Source: Flavobacteriales bacterium
GTDB taxonomy: Bacteria; Bacteroidota; Bacteroidia; Flavobacteriales_E; Vicingaceae
NCBI GenBank assembly: GCA_016763995.1
Contig: JAESST010000086.1
Span: 1 to 36,348 of the forward strand
Direction: 5' to 3'
DNA: 36,348 nt
The notes below the pieces were generated by a model. The model was not told the DNA's origin and did no database searches. It saw only the letters and a program-made list of their open reading frames with translations. Made by a program: the position numbers and the translations under genes. This document shows, in pieces, positions 9,854 through 21,478 of the stretch (the first letter of the stretch is position 1; each line of letters starts with the position of its first letter).

Positions 9854-10666
9854 CTATTCGTCTTTGTTTTCTTTCTTTTGAAATATTTTTTTGAGTCCTT
9901 GGAATCGTTCTTTCTTATCCTTTTTCATTTCTGTTTTTTCTGTTTTGTCTTCTTTCTTTGGGAACCATTGTTTCCATTTCATTTGAAATTTACTCTCTTC
10001 TTTGTTTTCCTGTTTAGGTTCCTTTGTTTTATCCTTCTTTATTTTTTTTGGCTTTGGAATTTGAAGTTCTCCACTCTTATACTTTTCTATTTTTCTTTCT
10101 CCATTTTCATTGTAAAGGTTTACTTTGCCATTTTTCAGCCCAGCTTTATACTTTCCTTTTTCTTTCAGCTTTGCCTTTGCGTTAAAAATTTCATACACTC
10201 CATGCTTCTGACCTTCTTTAAAATTGAATACTTCTTTTTTAGCACCTGAAGGCAAGTAAGAGATAGCTTCTCCGTCTAAACGTCCTTCTTTCCATTGGTA
10301 AGTTTGTTCATATCCTCCTTCTTCTGTCCATGCTTTCCACTCTCCCGTTTTTAGGCCATTGGCAAAGCTTCCTTTCAAAATCAACTTCTCTTTTTTGAAT
10401 AACTCGAATTTTCCATCTAATAAATTACCATGAAATCCTCCTAGGTTAGATTGGATTTTTCCTTTATAATACCAGTAGTATCGTTTAAAGTTATCTAATT
10501 CTATTTCTGTTGTAATTCGAGACACTTCTGCTAGAATAATCGAATCATTCTTTACAATTTTAATGTCCTTTCTTGTCGACACTTCATAGTTTTCTTGTCC
10601 TACTAATAAGCCAGAAGCAAAAAGAAGCATTGTCAGTATGCTTACTGCTTTTCTATATTCCTTCAT
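9854..10666 (-). CDS. Secreted MORN-repeat protein (YwqK-like), last gene of the secretion operon
   Basis: The 270-residue product starts with a signal peptide (MKEYRKAVSILTMLLFASGLLVG). About five MORN-type repeats follow between residues 75 and 190, with cores such as GLKTGEWKAWTEEG, GRLDGEAISYLPSG, GQKHGVYEIF and GLKNGKVNLYNENG. The last 70 residues are extremely rich in Lys/Glu (KPKKIKKDKTKEPKQENK) and probably disordered. MORN repeats are structural and give no single function; the family is sometimes labelled YwqK antitoxin, which is not informative here. It overlaps the PilP-like gene by 4 nt, so it is probably translated with the secretion genes. A role as cargo, periplasmic scaffold or surface factor would be inference only. 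Confidence 0.75.
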   Translation of the reverse strand: MKEYRKAVSILTMLLFASGLLVGQENYEVSTRKDIKIVKNDSIILAEVSRITTEIELDNFKRYYWYYKGKIQSNLGGFHGNLLDGKFELFKKEKLILKGSFANGLKTGEWKAWTEEGGYEQTYQWKEGRLDGEAISYLPSGAKKEVFNFKEGQKHGVYEIFNAKAKLKEKGKYKAGLKNGKVNLYNENGERKIEKYKSGELQIPKPKKIKKDKTKEPKQENKEESKFQMKWKQWFPKKEDKTEKTEMKKDKKERFQGLKKIFQKKENKDE

Positions 10667-11157
10667 TTTGAAATTACTTTTTGTTCATTCATGTATTCTA
10701 AAGAAATGTTTTCTTCCGAATAGTCCTTTACTGTTACTTTTTTCACTGTTTGCCCTTTCTTCACTAAAAAACTTCTACCTGCAATAGTTAATAAGCCTAC
10801 TTCTTTATTGTTGCTACTTTTTACCTTTCCTCCATATTTAATAAATGGCCATTGGATCTCTTTTTTTTCAACTAGTGGAGTTGACTTCCTATTAGGTATT
10901 GTAGAATTTACTGTAGAATTTATCGATCGATTTAAATTCTTCAAAGAGCTTGAAACACGAAAAGGGTCTTCATAATCAAGCGCTAACTCGTATCGCACAG
11001 TTTCTTTTTCTACTACAGGTTTTATTAGTGTTTTTTGAGAAATATTTTGCAATACTTCATCAGGTGACATTCCGTTCATAATTTGATACGCAATCCCTCC
11101 CCAAACAACTAGCATTAGAGGAATCAAAAGATATAAATTTTTCTTATTGCTTTTCAA
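10663..11157 (-). CDS. PilP/GspC-like inner-membrane alignment protein
   Basis: This 164-residue protein has one N-terminal membrane segment (about 7-27), a linker with YEDPFRVSS (DPFR at 64-67), and a small C-terminal beta domain (about 105-164: GLLTIAGRSFLVKKGQTV, then VKDYSEENISLEY). A DPF motif followed by 'value/record-G-x-V' beta strands is the layout of PilP, and resembles the HR domain of GspC, which contacts the secretin. Gene position after PilO-like and GspD supports this. The likely start is a TTG at 11157, directly after the TAG stop of the lipoprotein gene and in the same frame. A later ATG (residue 15 or 26) would remove much of the membrane anchor. Assignment is from architecture, not clear homology. 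Confidence 0.6.
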   Translation of the reverse strand: MKSNKKNLYLLIPLMLVVWGGIAYQIMNGMSPDEVLQNISQKTLIKPVVEKETVRYELALDYEDPFRVSSSLKNLNRSINSTVNSTIPNRKSTPLVEKKEIQWPFIKYGGKVKSSNNKEVGLLTIAGRSFLVKKGQTVKKVTVKDYSEENISLEYMNEQKVISK

Positions 11158-12096
11158 CTATTGTGCTGTAAATGATCTATTCGTACTAAATACACTTTCA
11201 TTATTAACGACATCAAAACTTTTGATTCTCCAAAAATAGCTACTGCCTACATTTAAACTAGAATCTATATAAGTGTTAGTTGTAATTCGATATTGAGCAG
11301 GGTTTGCAGATAAGGATCCTTCGTAGAGATACAAAATATCATAAGCCCAATTGTCATTGGCATCTACTCCACTTTGCCAAGTAAAAGTAATTACTGGGCC
11401 AATCGGAGGTGTCAGGCCATCTGCTGGAGTTTGTGGCGTTGGTGCAGAAGGACTTATTTGATCTATTTTAAAATTCGATTCTGAGAATTCTGTTTGACTT
11501 TCATTGTTAACTGCTTTAACCCTCCACGTGTACTTGTTGCTAGTTAATATTTTCCCAGTGTTGATGGTATTCGTTAGTGTTGTGTCTTGAAAAACAATGT
11601 TTCCATTTGCATTATTAATGACCTGCGTAATGTAGCTTTGTGCACTAAATAAACCTTCCCATCTAAGTGTTAAAGAAGAATCCTTGTATACACTATCTTT
11701 TAACGGAAATGTTATAATAACTGAACTTAAACTTATGTTCGTTGTGCTATCAATAGTAAACGATCGGACAACATAACTTGTGGAACTAACACTATTTAAA
11801 GCTCGTAAACTCCATTCATACTCTCCTGGGTTAAAGTTATAAGTAAACTGATTTCCCCGAATAAAGGTATCTACAGCAAAGCTAACGACACTGTCAAATC
11901 TTCCTCGAACTACCTCTAGTTGATAATCATCTGCTCCTTCTGAATAATCCCAGAAAAAATTAACAGTCGTATTTCCCGATTTAAATTGATCGGGCGGACT
12001 TAACACATTTAGCCCTTTTTTTGAGATGTCTTTTTCAATTACATCATCACAAGAAAACAAAAAAACAGCGAGAATTAATAAGCAACAATTTTTCAT
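11158..12096 (-). CDS. Outer-membrane-type lipoprotein with fibronectin III-like repeats
   Basis: The 312-residue protein has a lipoprotein signal ending LFSC (Cys16). Three FN3-like beta-sandwich modules follow, each marked by an F.W....A..Y...V pattern: FFWDYSEGADDYQLEV, LRWEGLFSAQSYITQV and FTWQSGVDANDNWAYDIL. Strands ending YEWSLRALN, YTWRVKAVN and YFWRIKSFD close each module. Such modules usually mediate protein or glycan contacts. Its place between the PilO-like and PilP-like genes suggests a structural part of the machine, perhaps a lipoprotein supporting the secretin, as pilotins do in proteobacteria. That role is inferred. Its stop codon is followed at once, in frame, by the TTG start of the next gene. 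Confidence 0.75.
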   Translation of the reverse strand: MKNCCLLILAVFLFSCDDVIEKDISKKGLNVLSPPDQFKSGNTTVNFFWDYSEGADDYQLEVVRGRFDSVVSFAVDTFIRGNQFTYNFNPGEYEWSLRALNSVSSTSYVVRSFTIDSTTNISLSSVIITFPLKDSVYKDSSLTLRWEGLFSAQSYITQVINNANGNIVFQDTTLTNTINTGKILTSNKYTWRVKAVNNESQTEFSESNFKIDQISPSAPTPQTPADGLTPPIGPVITFTWQSGVDANDNWAYDILYLYEGSLSANPAQYRITTNTYIDSSLNVGSSYFWRIKSFDVVNNESVFSTNRSFTAQ

Positions 12097-12099
12097 TTC

Positions 12100-12615
12100 T
12101 TAAACATTTATTGATTGTATATATAAGGTAAGAGAAAGACTCCTTTTCTTTGTTCTCGGCGATTCCTCAATGTTGAAATATGCCGAAGAAACTTTTCCGG
12201 ATGTATTCATCTTTTCAAACTCATCCATCAGCATTACTAAATTTTTAAAAGTGCCTTGCAACACAATTGGCGATGTAGTCAATTCAAAATTTTCTTTATC
12301 CTGTATATAATACTCTGGAAAACTCTTTAAGCTTACATTGTATTTGCTCGAGAGTTCAGATATTTCATACAAGAGAGATTCTCTCATGTCTAACACACTG
12401 GAGTAAAGCATTTTTGTGCTTCCTTGCAGCTGCTTAAGTTCTGATTCTAGTTTTGCTATTTCCTTTGGAGCTCTTTCTATATTAATTAGTTGGTTTTCAA
12501 TGTTTTCAATATTCTGACTCAAATCAAGAGTTTCTTGGAATGCTAGATTCCACGATATCATGAAAAAAAGTAAAGTTGACACCCATAGAATAATATTTTT
12601 CTTCTTAAAACTCAT
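12100..12615 (-). CDS. PilO/GspM-like inner-membrane protein
   Basis: This 171-residue bitopic protein has a short cytoplasmic tail (MSFKKKN), a membrane helix (about 8-26) and a coiled coil (about 30-90). A small ferredoxin-like C-terminal domain follows, with the PilO-type strand pattern LQGTFKNLVMLMDEFEKM. PilO and GspM dimerise through such regions with PilN/GspL and link the cytoplasmic ATPase platform to the periplasm. It overlaps the GspL/PilMN-like gene by 4 nt and is followed 3 nt later by the lipoprotein gene. Sequence identity to characterised members looks low; order and topology carry the call. Confidence 0.7.
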   Translation of the reverse strand: MSFKKKNIILWVSTLLFFMISWNLAFQETLDLSQNIENIENQLINIERAPKEIAKLESELKQLQGSTKMLYSSVLDMRESLLYEISELSSKYNVSLKSFPEYYIQDKENFELTTSPIVLQGTFKNLVMLMDEFEKMNTSGKVSSAYFNIEESPRTKKRSLSLTLYIQSINV

Positions 12616-13820
12616 CTTACCTCCACTTGCAATTTAAATTTTGAAATTTCTTTTCTTTCTAACTTTTGAAAGTTCTTTATATTGATCGTTTTAATCCATT
12701 CTTCTTGTTTCAACAAAGTAATCCAGTCGTTTAACACTGTGCTGGATTTAGCAATTCCACTTATGTTGATTGTTTTAATGTCAAACTCAATGTCTTCTCC
12801 TTTTTCAATTTTACGTTTAGAGGGATTAATGTTCAACTCATTCCATGTAATCCCCTTAGGCTTGCTAGAGGCCAAACGATCGGCATAATAAGTGCTATTT
12901 GATGCTGAGATTAAATCTGTTTTCAAAAAAAACGTCTCTTTATTTTCTTTCTCTATTCTCAATTGATTCAGGCGATCCAACTGGTTTTTATTTAATTGTA
13001 ATCGATCATTCAGCTGATTAAATTCTAACGAATAATCTTGGAAAAGGAAAAAGTTTATCAGTAGGGAACTAAGAAAAAAGGCCAAAATTACTTTCAGCCC
13101 TAAACTGAACATTTTTCTTTGAGTGAACTCTTCACGTTCATGCATTATGTTTTCAGAAAGTATACTTTCTCCGGTAGAAGCTAAAAAGTGATTAAACGCA
13201 ACTGCATAAGCCAACAACCAGTATGATGGAATGAATTCATCTCCTAGTTTTACGTTCGAACTCTCTTCCTTAGAATCATTCCAACCTAAAAGTCTCCCTT
13301 CTACTATTTCAAGCTCTTTCGACTCGAAAACGATACGTTGATTTTCTATTATGCTCGTAATATTATTCACTCCTGAAGTTCCCAAGTTAACCTCAATTAC
13401 CTGAAAACCCTCTGCTTTAAACTTCTTTAATAGCTCATCTAAAATTGACTTTCGAATGAATTGGATCCATGATTGTGAGGCTGTAATCGAAGCAGAATAA
13501 AAATATAATTCATCTGCTTTTATATTGGGTAAGCTTTTTTGAATTAAGTCTAGATCTGAGTCTCCTTCTTTATGACTACTTATTTTGCTGAGTACTCCCC
13601 TTCCTCTCACGTTCAAATAAACTGGTAGCTTATTGTCAAGATCTTTTGAAAATAATTCCTCTAGTCCATTCCCTTTTAACTTTTGCAACAATAGAACTTC
13701 GTTCTTCTTAAGACTGAGCTCTGTTAAAAAGAAATCCACCTCTCCTCTATCGGATAATTTAAGATCTATCCCATAAGCAGTATTGCCTTCAATAAAAGAT
13801 GTTAATTTCTCCTTCAGCAT
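12612..13820 (-). CDS. GspL / PilM-PilN-like assembly protein
   Basis: The 402-residue product has a cytoplasmic N-terminal domain (about 1-230), one membrane helix (about 238-260, LKVILAFFLSSLLINFFLF) and a periplasmic coiled coil plus PilN-like domain (261-402). This is the architecture of GspL, or of PilM and PilN fused. The cytoplasmic part should resemble an actin-like ATPase (AYGIDLKLS near residue 15), but no clear ATP-binding motifs are seen and it may be degenerate, as in GspL. In the complex it would tether the GspE ATPase to the membrane. It overlaps secretin and PilO-like genes by 1 and 4 nt. Confidence 0.7.
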   Translation of the reverse strand: MLKEKLTSFIEGNTAYGIDLKLSDRGEVDFFLTELSLKKNEVLLLQKLKGNGLEELFSKDLDNKLPVYLNVRGRGVLSKISSHKEGDSDLDLIQKSLPNIKADELYFYSASITASQSWIQFIRKSILDELLKKFKAEGFQVIEVNLGTSGVNNITSIIENQRIVFESKELEIVEGRLLGWNDSKEESSNVKLGDEFIPSYWLLAYAVAFNHFLASTGESILSENIMHEREEFTQRKMFSLGLKVILAFFLSSLLINFFLFQDYSLEFNQLNDRLQLNKNQLDRLNQLRIEKENKETFFLKTDLISASNSTYYADRLASSKPKGITWNELNINPSKRKIEKGEDIEFDIKTINISGIAKSSTVLNDWITLLKQEEWIKTINIKNFQKLERKEISKFKLQVEVR

Positions 13821-15745
13821 TAGTAGATAACAGTAGGTTTGATAAAAATATTCAACTGAGAACTTGATTTAGATCTAGTTCTATTTCCAAAAATCCATTT
13901 CAGAACAGGAATTCTAGCAATTAACGGTAAGCCGGAACCAGAATCATTGGTTGACTTTTCTTCTAATCCACCAAGAAGAACAATTTCATTGTCTTTCACT
14001 CTAAGGATAGATGTAAAACTTCTAGTTACCTTTCCTGGAGGAGCATCCTCAGTAATTCTCTCTGTAAAATCAGATTGCTCAACAGATATTTCCATTGTAA
14101 TTTGATCGTTACCGCTCACAAAAGGTTTAATTTTTATGGATAAATCTGCGTTAACAGCTACATAGGTTCTATTATTCTGCGTTTGAGGACTTAAACTTCC
14201 TTGAAATATACTTTGCTCATTTACATAGTATTCCGTGTTCCCAATTTTTAAATTAGCTTCATGACCGTTTAAGGTAGCCAGTTTTGGTGTCGACCTTACT
14301 TTTAAGATCCCATCTGTTTCTAAAGCCTTGATGCTCAGGTAAAAATTTGGGGTTACTTTTCCTAAGTTAATGGTACTTCCTTTGTTAATGCTACCAATTA
14401 CATTGTTCAATGAACTTGAACTAAAATTAAAGCTTGCATCTGGTAATATTTGGCCGTTAGTAGCTGCCGAAGGCTCATTTCCCAAACCAGCCGTTATTCC
14501 AGTTGAAACGCTTCTATTTTTACGATAATCAACAATAATTACTTCAATAGCAATCATTGGCACTACCTGATCAATTTTTTCTAAAAAATGAACTAGATCT
14601 TGGATTTGTGGAACAGACCCACTAATTACCAAGCTATTCAAGTCTGGAAATTCCTTTAATTCTACTTCTTTTGTTAAATCAGATGGTATAAATGTTATTA
14701 AATCTTCTATTGACCTATTTTGTAGCTGAAATATAATCGTGTTTCTTAAGCCTTCTGCTTTTCGCTCTCCAATCAAATATACTCCGTTTGATTTTGAATA
14801 GGTATAGATTGTAGACTCAAACAAGTTAGACAATAAATCATCAAAAGTGCTAGACTGTAAATTGAGGGATTTGTTTCCTTGCAAATTAGCCATAAGGTAA
14901 TAGTTCAGCTTTAACTCTGCTCCCAATGCTTTCACTATCTCATCAATTGAAATGTCTTCTGCTGATATTTCAATGTCATTTGGTCCATTTACTTTTAAGA
15001 ATAAGCCTTCTTCTTTCTTTCTTTCGTATCTCTCATTTCTTATTTTAGATTTATTTTGGTTCGCCTTTTTAAGATCTTCTGAGTTTTCTGCTTTTCCTTT
15101 CTCCGATAAAAGGTAAAAGTTGTCTTCCGTCTCTACAAGCTCCAGATCATTTGCAAAAGCAAACTTTTCAATTGCATTTTTAAAGGGTACACCTTTAATG
15201 TAAACAGATACTTTCTTACTGGAAATTTGAGGGGCTAACACCACATTCTTACCTGAAACTTCTGTTATTTTCCTCACTACTTTACTTAAATCATCGTTGT
15301 TTAAGTCCAACAGTAGAAAATCTGTGCTTTTGAAGTACTGTACTATTATCGCCTTTTCTTTTACTTCTTCGATTTCTTGTGCAGGGGGATTGTATTTCCC
15401 AATGGACATGATGTTTCCTGTAAATTCAATATCTAATTGATACTTTTTTACTAAAAAAGTCAAAACATCTGCTACAGTTACATTTGAGAAATTATTGACA
15501 ACCAATACGTCTAAACCTTTGTCAACACTAACGTTCAAATCATTGGTGTTTGCAATTCCCCTAATAAACTCATCGAGTGATGATCCATTAATTGAAAGTT
15601 CAACTAGATTACTTAAGCCTGGGTTATCTACGGCAATAATATCGAGCTGTGCTTTTATTTGATCAATCCTTCCTTGTGAAAAGCCCAAACTTCCATGAAG
15701 CATAAACAAGCTCAATAAAACAATCAATAGGTAGTTATTTTTCAT
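13820..15745 (-). CDS. Type II secretion / type IV pilus secretin (GspD/PilQ family)
   Basis: The 641-residue protein has a signal peptide (MKNNYLLIVLLSLFMLHGS). STN/N-domain modules occupy residues about 35-390 (e.g. ADVLTFLVKKYQLDI, PFKNAIEKFAFANDL). The conserved secretin pore follows at about 395-641: IAIEVIIVDYRKNRSVSTG, the gate region, then ILRVKDNEIVLLGGLEE and GLPLIARIPVLKWIFG near the end. It forms the outer-membrane channel through which pseudopilus-driven cargo or a pilus passes. No S domain for a pilotin is apparent after the pore, which fits a system using another lipoprotein. Adjacent, with no gap, to gspE upstream. Confidence 0.93.
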   Translation of the reverse strand: MKNNYLLIVLLSLFMLHGSLGFSQGRIDQIKAQLDIIAVDNPGLSNLVELSINGSSLDEFIRGIANTNDLNVSVDKGLDVLVVNNFSNVTVADVLTFLVKKYQLDIEFTGNIMSIGKYNPPAQEIEEVKEKAIIVQYFKSTDFLLLDLNNDDLSKVVRKITEVSGKNVVLAPQISSKKVSVYIKGVPFKNAIEKFAFANDLELVETEDNFYLLSEKGKAENSEDLKKANQNKSKIRNERYERKKEEGLFLKVNGPNDIEISAEDISIDEIVKALGAELKLNYYLMANLQGNKSLNLQSSTFDDLLSNLFESTIYTYSKSNGVYLIGERKAEGLRNTIIFQLQNRSIEDLITFIPSDLTKEVELKEFPDLNSLVISGSVPQIQDLVHFLEKIDQVVPMIAIEVIIVDYRKNRSVSTGITAGLGNEPSAATNGQILPDASFNFSSSSLNNVIGSINKGSTINLGKVTPNFYLSIKALETDGILKVRSTPKLATLNGHEANLKIGNTEYYVNEQSIFQGSLSPQTQNNRTYVAVNADLSIKIKPFVSGNDQITMEISVEQSDFTERITEDAPPGKVTRSFTSILRVKDNEIVLLGGLEEKSTNDSGSGLPLIARIPVLKWIFGNRTRSKSSSQLNIFIKPTVIY

Positions 15746-17197
15746 TTAGTTCGTCATCAATAAATAATATACTTCTTCAATAGAACTTGCTCCTTTTGCC
15801 AATAATTCAAAGGCAATCTGATCTAAGCCTCTAATCCCTTTCTGCTCCAAATAGTCTGTTACGTTGTATTCTGATTCCCTAACCTTTGATGCTAGGTAAT
15901 TATCAATGGGTATAATTTCATACAATGCTTTTCTTCCTGTATATCCTGTATAGTGACAACTTTCACATCCAACAGGTTCATATACTTCTTTGATGTCATA
16001 AGGTAATTCATATCCTAATGGTAATTCCGAGGAATTCAACTCCTTCTTTTGCTTACAATTGTTGCACAATAAACGCACAAGTCTTTGAGACGCGGTTACG
16101 TTTAATGTTCCTGCCAATAAATAAGGCGGCACTCCCATATCTACCAATCGGGAAATAGTTCCCCATGCTGAATTAGTATGGATAGTTGATAGGACTAAAT
16201 GCCCTGTTAAGGCCGCTCTTATGGCCATTTTTGCCGTTTCTCCATCTCGAATCTCTCCTAGCATAATAATATCAGGATCTTGTCTTAAAAACGATTTTAA
16301 AGCACTTGAAAAAGTGAGTCCAATTTGCTCCTTCAATTGAACTTGGTTAATTCCTTCTAAAGTATATTCAATTGGATCTTCAATTGTAACAATGTTTGTT
16401 TTTTCATCGTTGAGTTCCTTCAAGGTAGCATAAAGTGTTGTTGTTTTACCTGACCCTGTTGGCCCACTAATTAATACAATTCCGTGCCCCTTCTTCACTC
16501 CTTCTAAATAGTTCAACAATTGAGTTTCTTCAAAGCCCAATGCATTAATATTTATATCTGTAGCATCTCTACTCAAGAGCCTCAATACAATCTTTTCTCC
16601 ATGAAGTGTTGGTAAAACCGAAACCCGAATATCAAAGTTCTTCCCATCTTCAGAAAAAGATATCCTTCCATCTTGAGGCAATCTTTTTTCCGCAATATCG
16701 AGATTCGCTCTAATCTTTAACTTGTTAATAATTGCGGGATATTCATCTTTATGGATGATGTATTTTTCAATGAGTTTTCCATCTATTCTCAACCTTACAC
16801 GACACTTTTCTTCGTAAATTTCTATGTGAATATCACTAGACTCAAGTCGCTCTGCTTCTGAAATTAGTTCAAGAACAAAGTCATCGTTGGAATAACTTAA
16901 AACAGTATCCTTTTGTTGCTTCTTTTTACTTCTTCGATATAGGCGGCTAAGTGTTTGTTGTAAAATTTCTGTTTCTAACGATTCTAATTCTACTGTTCTG
17001 CCAAAAACCAGTTCTAGTTCTTCTTGTACTCCAACAGAATTTACCTTGCTGTCCAAGTAAAAGGTCACTTTTTCGGTGCTTACTTTTTTAGGAATAATAC
17101 GGTAATGCCATGCCTGATCAGCAGACAAAAATTGCTGATATTCAACTTTTATATCTATAAATTCTTGATTAATCATAAAAGTATTGAATTCATCCAT
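15746..17197 (-). CDS. Type II secretion / pilus assembly ATPase (GspE/PilB family)
   Basis: The 483-residue hexameric ATPase powers pseudopilus polymerisation at the cytoplasmic face. It shows Walker A GPTGSGKTT (245-253), the Asp box TIEDPIEY (271-278), Walker B with GEIRD (314-318), a His box (HLVLSTIHTN) and the GspE/PilB zinc tetracysteine site at C378, C381, C411 and C414. The N-terminal domain is short (about 100 residues) compared with typical PilB. The track start at 17197 overlaps the peptidase gene by 25 nt. The internal ATG at 17176 (residue 8) forms an exact ATGA overlap with the peptidase stop and is an equally good or better start. The zinc motif separates it from PilT-type retraction ATPases. 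Confidence 0.95.
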   Translation of the reverse strand: MDEFNTFMINQEFIDIKVEYQQFLSADQAWHYRIIPKKVSTEKVTFYLDSKVNSVGVQEELELVFGRTVELESLETEILQQTLSRLYRRSKKKQQKDTVLSYSNDDFVLELISEAERLESSDIHIEIYEEKCRVRLRIDGKLIEKYIIHKDEYPAIINKLKIRANLDIAEKRLPQDGRISFSEDGKNFDIRVSVLPTLHGEKIVLRLLSRDATDININALGFEETQLLNYLEGVKKGHGIVLISGPTGSGKTTTLYATLKELNDEKTNIVTIEDPIEYTLEGINQVQLKEQIGLTFSSALKSFLRQDPDIIMLGEIRDGETAKMAIRAALTGHLVLSTIHTNSAWGTISRLVDMGVPPYLLAGTLNVTASQRLVRLLCNNCKQKKELNSSELPLGYELPYDIKEVYEPVGCESCHYTGYTGRKALYEIIPIDNYLASKVRESEYNVTDYLEQKGIRGLDQIAFELLAKGASSIEEVYYLLMTN

Positions 17198-17682
17198 TCA
17201 TCATTTCGCATAAAATCAATCGACATTAAACGGCTTGAAGTACTCAATAGAAATAATATTCCCGACATTATTCCTGCAAGGGGGATGTTTCTTTCTTGCA
17301 TTTTAGTTTTGAAAACGACAGCAATAATAGCACTAAGCAAAAGGGAGAAAGTGAAAAAGAGAATAAAGCTTGGGAGGTTAAATATAAAGGCACAAACAAC
17401 AAAAAATAAAATATCGCCCAGTCCTATTTTGGAATCGACAATATTTACTAAAGAAGATTCCTTTATAGAGAAATAGATGGTTATCACCAATAAGTTAACG
17501 ACAATAAATAATAGATTTAATAAGAAAGAGTTTAGTATTTCATCTATTAGTTGATCCGAATACACTAAATAAGCGATTAGTGTAACAGGTAAAATCCACC
17601 ATGAGATTGACCGCTGCTTAAAATCTTGAAAAACAATAACACCAAGACTAATTAGGAAAATAATGAAGGGGAATAATTTCAT
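17173..17682 (-). CDS. Minimal prepilin peptidase (A24 aspartyl protease, peptidase domain only)
   Basis: This 169-residue, highly hydrophobic protein has about five or six membrane segments. The two catalytic aspartates of A24 peptidases are visible: D20 in VFQDFKQRSISWW, and D90 in the GxGD motif KIGLGDILFF (87-90). It would cleave the prepilin leaders of the nearby pseudopilins at the cytoplasmic membrane face. The N-terminal methyltransferase domain with its CxxC pairs, found in PilD/GspO, is absent, so the new N termini may stay unmethylated or be modified elsewhere. It lies 3 nt after the gspG-like gene and overlaps gspE. Confidence 0.88.
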   Translation of the reverse strand: MKLFPFIIFLISLGVIVFQDFKQRSISWWILPVTLIAYLVYSDQLIDEILNSFLLNLLFIVVNLLVITIYFSIKESSLVNIVDSKIGLGDILFFVVCAFIFNLPSFILFFTFSLLLSAIIAVVFKTKMQERNIPLAGIMSGILFLLSTSSRLMSIDFMRNDEWMNSILL

Positions 17683-17685
17683 GAA

Positions 17686-18078
17686 TTAGTCTTTAGTTAC
17701 TTCTTTTAATTTCTGATCCTGATCAATTTCCCAAATATTATAAATTCCATCTCCATCGAAATCTGTTACTGAAGTTGCTGTTATTTTAAAGCGATTATTT
17801 GTTGCTTCTTGAATTTCTATTTTATAATTTCCTGACCCACCATCGCTTACTAGGGTGGCGTGTTCAAAGTCAATTTCGTTAAAATCTGTAGAATACTTTG
17901 AATTCATATAGAAAAATGTTTTTTCTAAGGTATAAATGTGTTTCAGCTGCAATTGTGCTTCAGTACTCTTTGCTTTAGCTATTAAAGGCATCAACTTCGG
18001 TAACGCTAATAGAATTAAAATCCCGACAATAATTAGGACAACAAGTAGTTCGGTGATGGTAAATGCTTTCAACTTCAT
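17686..18078 (-). CDS. Major pseudopilin, GspG-like
   Basis: The 130-residue protein has a type IV prepilin leader, MKLKA|FTITELLVVLIIVG, with Glu at mature position 5 and a hydrophobic helix continuing to about residue 28. The globular part is short and ends with TDFDGDGIYNIWEIDQD (105-121), which resembles an EF-hand or thrombospondin type 3 calcium loop. GspG pseudopilins in characterised type II systems bind calcium near the C terminus, which supports a GspG role. The residue before cleavage is Ala, not the usual Gly. It lies between the GspF and peptidase genes. It is probably the main subunit of the pseudopilus. Confidence 0.85.
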   Translation of the reverse strand: MKLKAFTITELLVVLIIVGILILLALPKLMPLIAKAKSTEAQLQLKHIYTLEKTFFYMNSKYSTDFNEIDFEHATLVSDGGSGNYKIEIQEATNNRFKITATSVTDFDGDGIYNIWEIDQDQKLKEVTKD

Positions 18079-18121: not shown

Positions 18122-19270
18122 TTATTGAATACCTGAGCCTAATTCGAAAAGAGGTAAATACATGGCAATTAATATAATCCCAACAAAGAATCCGATAAAG
18201 ATAATTAAGAATGGTTCTAAGAGGCTACTTATGGTTTTTGAGCTATTTTCTGTTTCACTATCATATTGACTTTGTATTTGTTCAAAAACAATAGTTAACT
18301 TATTTACTTCTTCTGCCACTTTCACCAATGAGACCATCCTTTTCGGGAAAATAGAATGCTTGCTCATCGATTCATATAACAAGGAGCCTTTTAGAATATC
18401 TTTCTCCATCTGAATAAGTGCCTCTTCTAAAGGATAGAACTTCATCATTTTTCTAACCAATAACATAGAGCTCACTAAAGGGTTATTCACCCTGATTAAT
18501 AGGCTCATAGAATGGCAGAATCGTGATAGGTAAGTTTTCGAAGTAATGTCTCCTAAAATTGGTGTTTTCAAAACCACAATGGTTAGATACTTCCTAAACC
18601 AATCTTTCTTTCGCTGACTAAAAATAAATACCACAATACCTGCAATAATTAAGAGTATAATTAATCCATAAGCTTGCAACGATTCTGATAAATCCAATAC
18701 TCTTTGAGTTAAATAAGGCAACTCTCCTCCAAATCGCTTAAAAGCATCTTCAAATATGGGCACAATAAAACTCAACATAAAAACAACTGCCAGCATCGCC
18801 GTTACCAGTACAATCACAGGATAAGAAAAGGCACTGACCATTTTACGCTTAAACTCTAATCTTCCTTCATAAAAATTGGCTAAATCCTCCAGAATTGTTA
18901 TAATAGTACCACTTTCTTCTCCAATCTTTATACTATAATATTCATATTCAGAAAAGTAAGCAGTTTTTTTTAACCCTTCGGAAAAGGTTAATCCCTTAAT
19001 AATATTATCAAAAACTTCTTGTAATATATTCTTTGTCTTTATATTTTTTTCTCCATCAATACTTAACTCAATACTCATTCTGATGTCAATTCCTGCAGAT
19101 AAAAGTAAACTCAGGTCTTTATAGAATCGAAATTTCTTTTTATCAGAAAGGCTTTTTGAAAGAGAAAGGTCAGTACTTAAGAGTTCTGATAAACTTCTAG
19201 TCTTCTTTTTAAGAGAAGAATCGATGTTATCTGCTTGATTATTTTTAAGCTCTTGTATATTAATTCCCAC
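18122..19270 (-). CDS. Inner-membrane platform protein (GspF/PilC family)
   Basis: The 382-residue protein has two T2SF-type helical cytoplasmic domains and three membrane segments: VSAFSYPVIVLVTAMLAVVF (about 144-172), YGLIILLIIAGIVVFIF (about 198-216) and PFLIIFIGFFVGIILIAMYL (about 350-374). The family feature F..LS.LL.AGI..R.S appears as FYKDLSLLLSAGIDIRMSIEL (about 49-69), and EESGTI marks the conserved GE-SG motif. It couples ATPase rotation to pseudopilin insertion. The start is a GTG at 19270, inside the 3' end of a 43-codon micro-ORF, so translation may be coupled. Confidence 0.93.
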   Translation of the reverse strand: MGINIQELKNNQADNIDSSLKKKTRSLSELLSTDLSLSKSLSDKKKFRFYKDLSLLLSAGIDIRMSIELSIDGEKNIKTKNILQEVFDNIIKGLTFSEGLKKTAYFSEYEYYSIKIGEESGTIITILEDLANFYEGRLEFKRKMVSAFSYPVIVLVTAMLAVVFMLSFIVPIFEDAFKRFGGELPYLTQRVLDLSESLQAYGLIILLIIAGIVVFIFSQRKKDWFRKYLTIVVLKTPILGDITSKTYLSRFCHSMSLLIRVNNPLVSSMLLVRKMMKFYPLEEALIQMEKDILKGSLLYESMSKHSIFPKRMVSLVKVAEEVNKLTIVFEQIQSQYDSETENSSKTISSLLEPFLIIFIGFFVGIILIAMYLPLFELGSGIQ

Positions 19271-19417: not shown

Positions 19418-19900
19418 TTACCTTTTAAACAGGGGGCTTTTTGTTTGATTTATAAAAAAAGAAGCTTCTATGTTAATTCTTGGGCGTATATAGTGTTTTT
19501 GTTTGTTTTTGGTTATTTCTAATAGTATTGAATTTAAAACGAATGATTGTTCATTGATCTGCTGCTGCACCAAAACAGAATCAAACTGAAAAACCAGTTC
19601 TTGATTCATCTCTGATCGAGTAATCTCTTTTTCTGTAAATCGATATTGAATGCCTCCTCTGTTACTTCTTATCACTCCTCTACTTTTTGAAGACCAGTCA
19701 TGATAACGACTAAAATCATGCTTTAGTAAAAAGCGTAATTCTTGAGTTTGTTCTATGTAATTAAGATTTTCGTTTCTTAATCTTAAGACTTTACTAACTA
19801 TTTCAATGGAATGATATCCAATAGTTGTTACTATAGCTGAAATGGCTAAAGCAATGGTTAATTCAGTTATCGTAAAGGCCTTAATCTTCATCAGCTTCAT
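19418..19900 (-). CDS. Pseudopilin, GspJ-like
   Basis: The 160-residue protein carries a prepilin leader MKLMKIKA|FTITELTIALAIS with Glu5 after cleavage and a long N-terminal hydrophobic helix. The globular domain (50-160) is rich in polar beta-strand-like segments (GGIQYRFTEKEITRSEM, NSILLEITKNKQKHYI). Its place directly after a GspI-like and before the GspF gene, and its size, suggest the GspJ minor pseudopilin that forms the tip with GspI and GspK. The I/J labels are by position and size only. It overlaps the GspI-like gene by 20 nt. Confidence 0.7.
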   Translation of the reverse strand: MKLMKIKAFTITELTIALAISAIVTTIGYHSIEIVSKVLRLRNENLNYIEQTQELRFLLKHDFSRYHDWSSKSRGVIRSNRGGIQYRFTEKEITRSEMNQELVFQFDSVLVQQQINEQSFVLNSILLEITKNKQKHYIRPRINIEASFFINQTKSPLFKR

Positions 19901-20243
19901 TTATTAGAATGATTCTCTTTATTGTATATAGTACCTCTTCTTTTTGAAGCACCAATAATTGAACGGCAAAAGCACTCTCTATTCTTTCATAATTATCTAC
20001 TAGTACTGATACTTCTAACTCCCTGATTCGAAAAGAATGATTCTCTAATTTGTGCTTCCCTTCTTCCAATTCCATTAGATACTGTTCCGTAACCAAAACA
20101 GCTTCTTGCTTTAAATTTTGCCCTATAGACACCTGATTGAACACAATAAAGCAGATACCAAAGCTAACACTTATCAAAATTAGTGATACAATAGTTTCTA
20201 CTAAAGTAAAGGCTTTTAATCGATGTTTATTTAATCTAACCAT
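19881..20243 (-). CDS. Pseudopilin, GspI-like
   Basis: A 120-residue protein with leader MVRLNKHRLKA|FTLVETIVSLILI, Glu at mature position 5 and a hydrophobic helix to about residue 33. The short remaining domain (VLVDNYERIESAFAVQLL, EVLYTIKRIILI) fits the small GspI minor pseudopilin. It overlaps the upstream GspK-like gene by 13 nt and the GspJ-like gene by 20 nt, so the three are probably made together as a tip complex. Assignment to GspI is by size and order. Confidence 0.7.
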   Translation of the reverse strand: MVRLNKHRLKAFTLVETIVSLILISVSFGICFIVFNQVSIGQNLKQEAVLVTEQYLMELEEGKHKLENHSFRIRELEVSVLVDNYERIESAFAVQLLVLQKEEVLYTIKRIILINEADED

Positions 20244-21478
20244 TTTGCTATTCCCCTTATTCTTTGAGATGTTTTGATTTGAATTCCCAAATATTCTTGA
20301 GGCATTTCTTCTGCATTAATCACACCATCTAGTAAGTGATTTTCGTAAATCGAAGAGCTTGTTTTTAGAATAAATTTCTCACAAGTAATACTTCCTTTTA
20401 CCTTTCCTCTCAATTCTACTTTGTCAAAGCTATAAACATTACCTGTTAGTTCTGCTGCCTCTTTTATACTCACAACTCCTTTGTTTGTATAGTTATCTGT
20501 ACCATATAAGATCACTTCTCCTGCAATTTTTGCCGACTCTTGAATTATAATAGCCGAACGTTCTCTTTTCGACTCTAATAAAATGGAAGAAGGGTAGTAT
20601 AATTCAGAATAGGCGCCAATAATAATAGTATCAGAAGCAATTAAATGAATAGATCCTTTGAAGTTGGCTGCAAGTTCTATTCGAGGAGCTATTAGTAAAA
20701 TATCTTCTGCGAAAACCGTACCCTCTAAATAAATACTTTCTTCAGACTTTACTATAATTCTCCCCTTCAATTTTCCATCGTACAAATAGATTCTCTCGGG
20801 TGAATAATAACAAAGCGTACTGTCTTGAAAGCTTTGCTGACTTTCTAATACTCCTTCTGATGCTACATCGTTGTATGAAACTACCTTGTGAGCCTCTTTG
20901 GGAATCCCGTCCAATAAAATGCGATCTAAATAGTCTTTTAAGGGATCATTTAAGTCGGGAATCTTATTTTCACTTGTTGTTTTAGTTCCGTTTATTAAGT
21001 CTTTACCTGAATAGCTTTTCCCTTCTATGTATGCTCTTTTAAGTCCTCTTTGGGGAATAAAAGAATTCCCAATAACCCTTGCATCTCCGCACAAAGATAA
21101 GGGATGGTTATTGTCTGCTAAATACAAAGCAAAGGGTGTTTCATTTTTATACCCTAAGAGAACGGATTCTTGAAAAGAAGATTGACGAAAACTCGTTTTT
21201 GCTGTTGCTAGATAAAAGCCTCCCCAATGCTCTAATTGAAGTTGTATGGCTTGTTCATCTCTTGAAAAAAGATATGTTTTATCAGGATCAAAATCTTTAA
21301 TCTCCTGTGTTCGCAACAAATTCATTGCTGAATGAACCCGCTCAATTGCCTCTATCCGGCCTTCATACTGTGCCATTCGTAATTTCTGGTAATAGGAATA
21401 CAAGACAAAAGAGGTCGCAATCGACCCAATAATGAGCGATATAAAAATAGCATACAAAAGAGATCCGGCTTTAAGCAT
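20231..21478 (-). CDS. Large GspK-like tip pseudopilin with bactofilin-like beta-helix
   Basis: The 415-residue protein begins MLKA|GSLLYAIFISLIIGSI, a prepilin-like leader and hydrophobic helix, but mature position 5 is Tyr, not Glu. Lack of Glu5 and large size are hallmarks of the GspK tip pseudopilin. Residues about 125-160 and 225-390 instead consist of short hydrophobic repeats typical of a bactofilin or polymer-forming beta-helix, e.g. GRIIVKSEESIYLEGTVFA, ANFKGSIHLIASDTIIIGA and GEVILYGTDN. Known GspK proteins have an alpha-helical domain with a calcium site, so this is a different fold on the same scaffold. It is the first gene of the operon and overlaps the GspI-like gene by 13 nt. 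Cleavage of KA|G is inferred. Confidence 0.72.
   Translation of the reverse strand: MLKAGSLLYAIFISLIIGSIATSFVLYSYYQKLRMAQYEGRIEAIERVHSAMNLLRTQEIKDFDPDKTYLFSRDEQAIQLQLEHWGGFYLATAKTSFRQSSFQESVLLGYKNETPFALYLADNNHPLSLCGDARVIGNSFIPQRGLKRAYIEGKSYSGKDLINGTKTTSENKIPDLNDPLKDYLDRILLDGIPKEAHKVVSYNDVASEGVLESQQSFQDSTLCYYSPERIYLYDGKLKGRIIVKSEESIYLEGTVFAEDILLIAPRIELAANFKGSIHLIASDTIIIGAYSELYYPSSILLESKRERSAIIIQESAKIAGEVILYGTDNYTNKGVVSIKEAAELTGNVYSFDKVELRGKVKGSITCEKFILKTSSSIYENHLLDGVINAEEMPQEYLGIQIKTSQRIRGIAKWLD

Follow-up and report, generated by a model that had tools for sequence, protein, structure and literature searches.

Introduction

Which protein occupies the K position in the machines annotated as type II secretion systems (T2SS) in Bacteroidota? 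The system described in C. hutchinsonii comprises D, E, F, G, O, two minor pseudopilins (CHU_3200, CHU_3201) and named candidates for L, M and C, with no GspK, and its cluster includes a gene, chu_3202, that is given without a role; in Flavobacterium johnsoniae there are three minor pseudopilins, none of them singled out as K (PMC5553014). In a published tree of the type IV filament superfamily, the Bacteroidetes "T2SS" always clusters with T4aP, and it has been suggested that it may represent a new secretion system that arose from T4aP independently (PMC6668835). In this work we analyze the first gene of one such operon, which may fill the empty K position of a widespread, little-studied secretion system and which bears on the published open question of whether type IV pili gave rise to the Bacteroidota system separately from the T2SS. 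If our reading is true, a single tip slot has come to hold proteins with unrelated inserts: an alpha-helical domain in GspK and a beta-solenoid in the protein studied here.

A type II secretion-like operon and its first gene

The window (the whole stretch of DNA that was analyzed, 36,348 nucleotides from a Flavobacteriales bacterium) contains a complete type II secretion-like operon on its minus strand. As proposed in a first-pass annotation, the gene of interest, hereafter the lead gene, comes first; it is an open reading frame of 415 codons with an ATG start (21478..20231) and shares 13 nt with the pilin gene that follows. Two Glu5-bearing prepilin-type genes follow, and after them the genes for GspF, a G-like pilin, an A24 peptidase, GspE, a secretin and the PilN-like and PilO-like proteins:

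20231..21478, minus strand: putative modular tip pseudopilin in the GspK position, 415 aa (ORF; AlphaFold2 pLDDT 93.6; ComZ the only PDB match at E<=0.001)
19881..20243, minus strand: minor pseudopilin, GspI position, 120 aa, Glu5 present (N_methyl, 20.4 bits; follows the lead gene in most loci)
19418..19900, minus strand: minor pseudopilin, GspJ position, 160 aa, Glu5 present (TIGR02532 above cut-off)
18122..19270, minus strand: GspF/PilC platform protein (T2SSF, 2.9e-39)
17686..18078, minus strand: major pseudopilin, G-like (NCBIfam)
17173..17682, minus strand: A24 prepilin peptidase, 169 aa (Peptidase_A24 above cut-off)
15746..17197, minus strand: GspE/PilB ATPase (T2SSE, 1.2e-124)
13820..15745, minus strand: secretin (Secretin, 2.4e-35)
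12612..13820, minus strand: PilN/GspL-like platform protein (PilN above cut-off)
12100..12615, minus strand: PilO/GspM-like protein (weak PilO match, E 0.028; position)
11158..12096, minus strand: Ig/Fn3-like protein (linked in many related loci)
10663..11157, minus strand: GspC/PilP-position protein (position and linkage; no family match)
9854..10666, minus strand: repeat protein of MORN/YwqK appearance (directly upstream of the lead-gene homologue in 50/67 loci; no Pfam match)

The peptidase consists of the A24 domain alone. The Ig/Fn3-like gene, located between the PilO-like and GspC-position genes, has the same place in many related loci. The repeat protein, whose MORN/YwqK name is a reading of its appearance, looks secreted and lies within 20 nt of the lead-gene homologue in 42 of those 50 loci; it looks like an uncharacterized, conserved component of the Bacteroidota secretion system. 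Many relatives present the order G, O, E, D, L, M, Fn3, C and repeat protein, followed by a block formed by the lead gene, I, J and F. The window has this block at the front, and its operon is therefore rearranged relative to those relatives.

Prepilin-type N terminus

The regions of the lead protein discussed below map to the window as follows:

21467..21478, minus strand: predicted prepilin leader, residues 1-4 (MLKA), putatively cut after Ala4 (conservation of position 4; covariation with the next pilin)
21308..21469, minus strand: long pilin-type N-terminal helix, residues 4-57, no Glu5 (alignment, AlphaFold2 model)
21146..21277, minus strand: pilin-like strands, residues 68-111, with a conserved WG at 85-86 (DSSP on the model; conservation)
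20300..21127, minus strand: predicted beta-solenoid domain, about residues 118-393, with a Pfam Bactofilin-like part at 312-377 (Pfam, AlphaFold2 model, Foldseek, periodicity)
20237..20260, minus strand: last strand, residues 407-414, which would complete the pilin sheet after the solenoid (DSSP on the model; putative pairing)

The protein begins with MLKA, followed beyond the predicted cut by GSLLYAIFISLIIG. Position 4 holds A, G or S in 61/61 aligned homologues and the +5 column (residue 9) contains E in 0/61. The N terminus is of the prepilin type and lacks Glu5, in agreement with the first-pass annotation. Relatives from other classes of the phylum start with EEG/SALITVLI (the slash marks the predicted cut), to be compared with QRG/VALLIVL in E. 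coli GspK. The motif [LI]KA precedes the predicted cut in the lead protein and in the three other pilins of the window, and the four pilins of the operon have Ala, not Gly, before that point. At 43 of 54 loci the -1 residue of the lead protein matches that of the next pilin, where 27.7 matches are expected (0/100000 shuffles); this agreement suits processing by a single common peptidase, and kinship of the genomes also contributes to it.

Predicted fold and repeat periodicity

Structure prediction with AlphaFold2 on the single sequence gave a pLDDT of 44 and was discarded; the model used here was obtained from the alignment of 61 sequences (mean pLDDT 93.6, pTM 0.90). As assigned by DSSP, it consists of a helix (4-57), strands at 68-70, 78-85, 88-97 and 100-111, numerous short strands starting at residue 118 and a final strand at 407-414. 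A beta-helix, as anticipated in the first-pass annotation, is predicted over about residues 118-393, and the alpha-domain of GspK is absent from the model, with the beta-helix there instead. In this model the solenoid does not appear to form the whole body of the protein but to interrupt the pilin domain ahead of a last strand: strand 407-414 comes after the solenoid, and the placement of the solenoid between the penultimate and last strands depends on a putative strand pairing.

The short hydrophobic strands that the first-pass annotation had read as repeats exceed chance expectation. An 18-residue repeat on its own was not significant (P 0.12), and a 6-residue period was chosen for testing after that outcome. 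Over residues 222-385 the hydrophobicity of the family profile shows this period with a value of 1.64, against 0.0 +/- 0.2 in shuffled profiles (0/20000), and the window protein alone yields 0.93 (4/20000 shuffles). The period is found neither in residues 1-164 nor in a stretch of GspE. Judged from sequence, the 6-residue rhythm is that of a triangular solenoid.

Foldseek searches of the PDB with the model returned only three chains at E<=0.001, all of them ComZ (6QVI; 6.6e-6, 2.1e-5 and 2.6e-4), followed by ice-binding proteins of the DUF3494 type with E from 0.014. The TM-scores against ComZ are only 0.2-0.3, with an rmsd near 19 A, which counts against a ComZ-like reading; it follows that the common ground lies in the order of the elements, with no rigid overlay. 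Among the 50 best PDB matches there is neither a GspK nor a bactofilin, and a viral fold search with the model gave no significant match.

Comparison with bactofilins and GspK

The only Pfam match of the lead protein is Bactofilin (PF04519), at residues 312-377 (E 3.5e-6), with 27.6 bits for a cut-off of 27.9; NCBIfam gave no match. The same profile matches 40/61 homologues at E<=0.05, and that of DUF3494 (PF11999) weakly matches 3/61. The Bactofilin matches lend some credit to the view of the lead protein as a membrane-anchored bactofilin that would act as a polymerizing scaffold of the machine, outside the pseudopilus. Bactofilins have a beta-helix, and one is predicted for the lead protein. 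However, the match falls below the curated cut-off and is limited to 66 of 415 residues, no bactofilin figures in the top 50 structural matches, and the lead protein has a prepilin-type leader, a long pilin helix and pilin strands, all of which make the scaffold the least likely of the alternatives considered here and a very improbable one. The bactofilin likeness put forward in the first-pass annotation stands as a partial profile match, but the closest solved structure is ComZ and the label is better given as ComZ-like.

A second alternative is that the lead protein is a true GspK that has diverged, with a beta-solenoid in place of the alpha-domain. Both proteins have a slot beside two minor pseudopilins, lack Glu5 and carry a large insert in the pilin domain (predicted, in the case of the lead protein); the start of the mature protein, [AGS]/xAL, is as in E. 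coli GspK, and the pilin domain of ComZ is itself nearest to that of GspK (PMC6561018). Against this view, a comparison of the family profile with E. coli GspK gave no match, the T2SSK profile (PF03934) has no match in the genome of the window or at the lead-gene loci, and GspK is missing from the 50 best structural matches. Moreover, the GspK insert is alpha-helical and sits between the third and fourth strands of the pilin sheet (PMC6561018), whereas the solenoid of the lead protein appears, in the model, to lie just before the last; E. coli gspK comes after gspI and gspJ, whereas the lead gene precedes its two minor-pilin genes; and the Bacteroidetes system branches apart from T2SS (PMC6668835). 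We therefore consider descent from GspK improbable.

The T2SSK profile does match in 117/395 genomes, away from the lead-gene loci and mostly in open reading frames of ~700-1200 aa, as well as in Gram-positive controls. We rejected these matches as GspK and read them as probable helix-hairpin-helix proteins.

Genomic linkage and co-occurrence

A search for related loci with the single lead protein found nothing, and the alignment of 61 sequences contains no segment of sufficient conservation for such a search. Homologues were identified in 16 of 46 genomes of the same order (that of the window included), with 32-38% identity among those that are full-length. A profile built from these order-level homologues located the gene in 63/395 Bacteroidia genomes, and with the 61-member profile it was also identified outside Bacteroidia, in 12 genomes from other classes of the phylum, with weak matches in two. 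The carriers include Acidiluteibacter ferrifornacis and Mucilaginibacter polytrichastri, together with assemblies labelled Flavobacteriales, Cytophagales, Chitinophagales and Saprospiraceae.

The gspF gene of the operon is present in 61 of the 395 Bacteroidia genomes and the lead gene in 63, with 60 genomes carrying both, three only the lead gene and one only gspF (Fisher P 3.6e-66, a value that ignores shared ancestry). Two of the three lead-gene-only assemblies are 69% and 78% complete and in the third a contig end cuts the lead gene; in the single gspF-only genome, a very fragmented assembly, gspF is at a contig edge. The lead gene lies 0.77-1.25 kb upstream of gspF and on the same strand for 57 of 62 gspF genes, a space that corresponds to two minor pilins, and gene maps of most loci show the order lead gene, pilin, pilin, gspF. 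In other classes of the phylum it is likewise found just upstream of gspF in most loci, usually with two pilin-sized genes between them. Tight linkage to pilin genes, on which the first-pass annotation had made its proposal depend, is thus observed well beyond the window. From gene order, chu_3202 of C. hutchinsonii should be a member of this family.

Relationship to ComZ and competence pili

ComZ of Thermus thermophilus is a large minor pilin for which a tip position has been argued and DNA binding reported (PMC6561018). It lacks Glu5 and bears a beta-solenoid before its last pilin strand (PDB 6QVI; PMC6561018). The lead protein likewise lacks Glu5, its model combines pilin helix and strands with a large beta-solenoid that may have the same placement, and ice-binding proteins are the nearest solenoid structures for both; those proteins are the next matches after ComZ, but they are free-standing solenoids with no pilin part. 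The two differ in that ComZ belongs to a competence T4aP, with a DNA-binding role, and the lead gene to a T2SS-like operon, and in the extent of the solenoid (about 380 residues in ComZ, about 275 here). Neither profile nor single-sequence searches detected sequence similarity between ComZ and the lead protein. Large modular pilins are a recognized theme (PMC8179133). PilBac5 (SO_0850) of Shewanella oneidensis is among the closest known systems and differs in belonging to a T4P cluster. Since ComZ is the closest solved structure, a competence pilus already provides a precedent for tip pilins with a beta-solenoid.

The likeness to ComZ could also mean that the operon encodes a type IV pilus or DNA-uptake machine, with the lead protein as a ComZ-like tip adhesin or DNA receptor. 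The DNA binding of the closest structure, the position of the Bacteroidetes core proteins in a cluster with T4aP (PMC6668835) and the PilN- and PilO-like nature of the platform proteins all speak for it. Several observations weigh in the opposite direction. The genome of the window (an assembly 87% complete) has GspE and no PilT above its cut-off, which argues against a retracting pilus, and no com genes were noticed in the mapped loci. The solenoid of the window protein is acidic (pI 5.1, net charge -9), though the family median is 7.8. In addition, C. hutchinsonii mutants in D, F and G are affected in cellulose use and outer-membrane proteins (PMC5553014). What counts against the secretion reading, in turn, is that extracellular protein profiles hardly changed in the mutants and that the case for protein secretion by the machine comes from this one organism. 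On balance, a pilus or DNA-uptake function seems unlikely, if less so than descent from GspK.

A probable beta-solenoid tip in the GspK slot

Taking these results together, we favor as probable the reading that, in the Bacteroidota "type II secretion" machine, the lead protein is the counterpart of GspK, in the form of a ComZ-like modular tip pseudopilin. A predicted beta-helix with no GspK alpha-domain, combined with the observed linkage to pilin genes, supports the proposal of the first-pass annotation that the GspK slot holds a different, non-GspK tip architecture. Within the partial coverage of our literature search, no paper reported a beta-solenoid tip protein of the Bacteroidota T2SS.

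From the sequence features, from the linkage and co-occurrence observed across the phylum and from the predicted fold, we infer the following mechanism. The A24 peptidase of the operon would cut the short leader after Ala4. Lacking Glu5, the mature protein would start the filament instead of being added to it, and a role as first subunit of the pseudopilus suits the absence of this residue. It would then cap the two minor pseudopilins encoded next, at the pseudopilus tip, where the beta-solenoid would head the pseudopilus as it rises into the secretin and could present a surface to cargo or to the gate of the secretin. A tip complex of M. xanthus pili plugs the secretin at its vestibule (PMC7541494), and by analogy secretin plugging, which the first-pass annotation had raised along with cargo docking, would be a reasonable option.

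A tip that resembles a T4aP competence pilin rather than GspK fits the proposal of an independent origin from T4aP (PMC6668835). We extend this, with somewhat less than even confidence, to the suggestion that the Bacteroidota "T2SS" is a protein-secretion machine of its own that derives from a type IV pilus, with a ComZ-like beta-solenoid tip replacing GspK as its hallmark throughout the phylum.

The assembly of the window also contains, on another contig (C454, locus L038, 1561-5540), a group of T4P minor pilins and a pilin, proteobacterial-looking and beside unrelated genes. This N_methyl cluster is a separate T4P minor-pilin set, and its contig is probably a contaminant of the bin.
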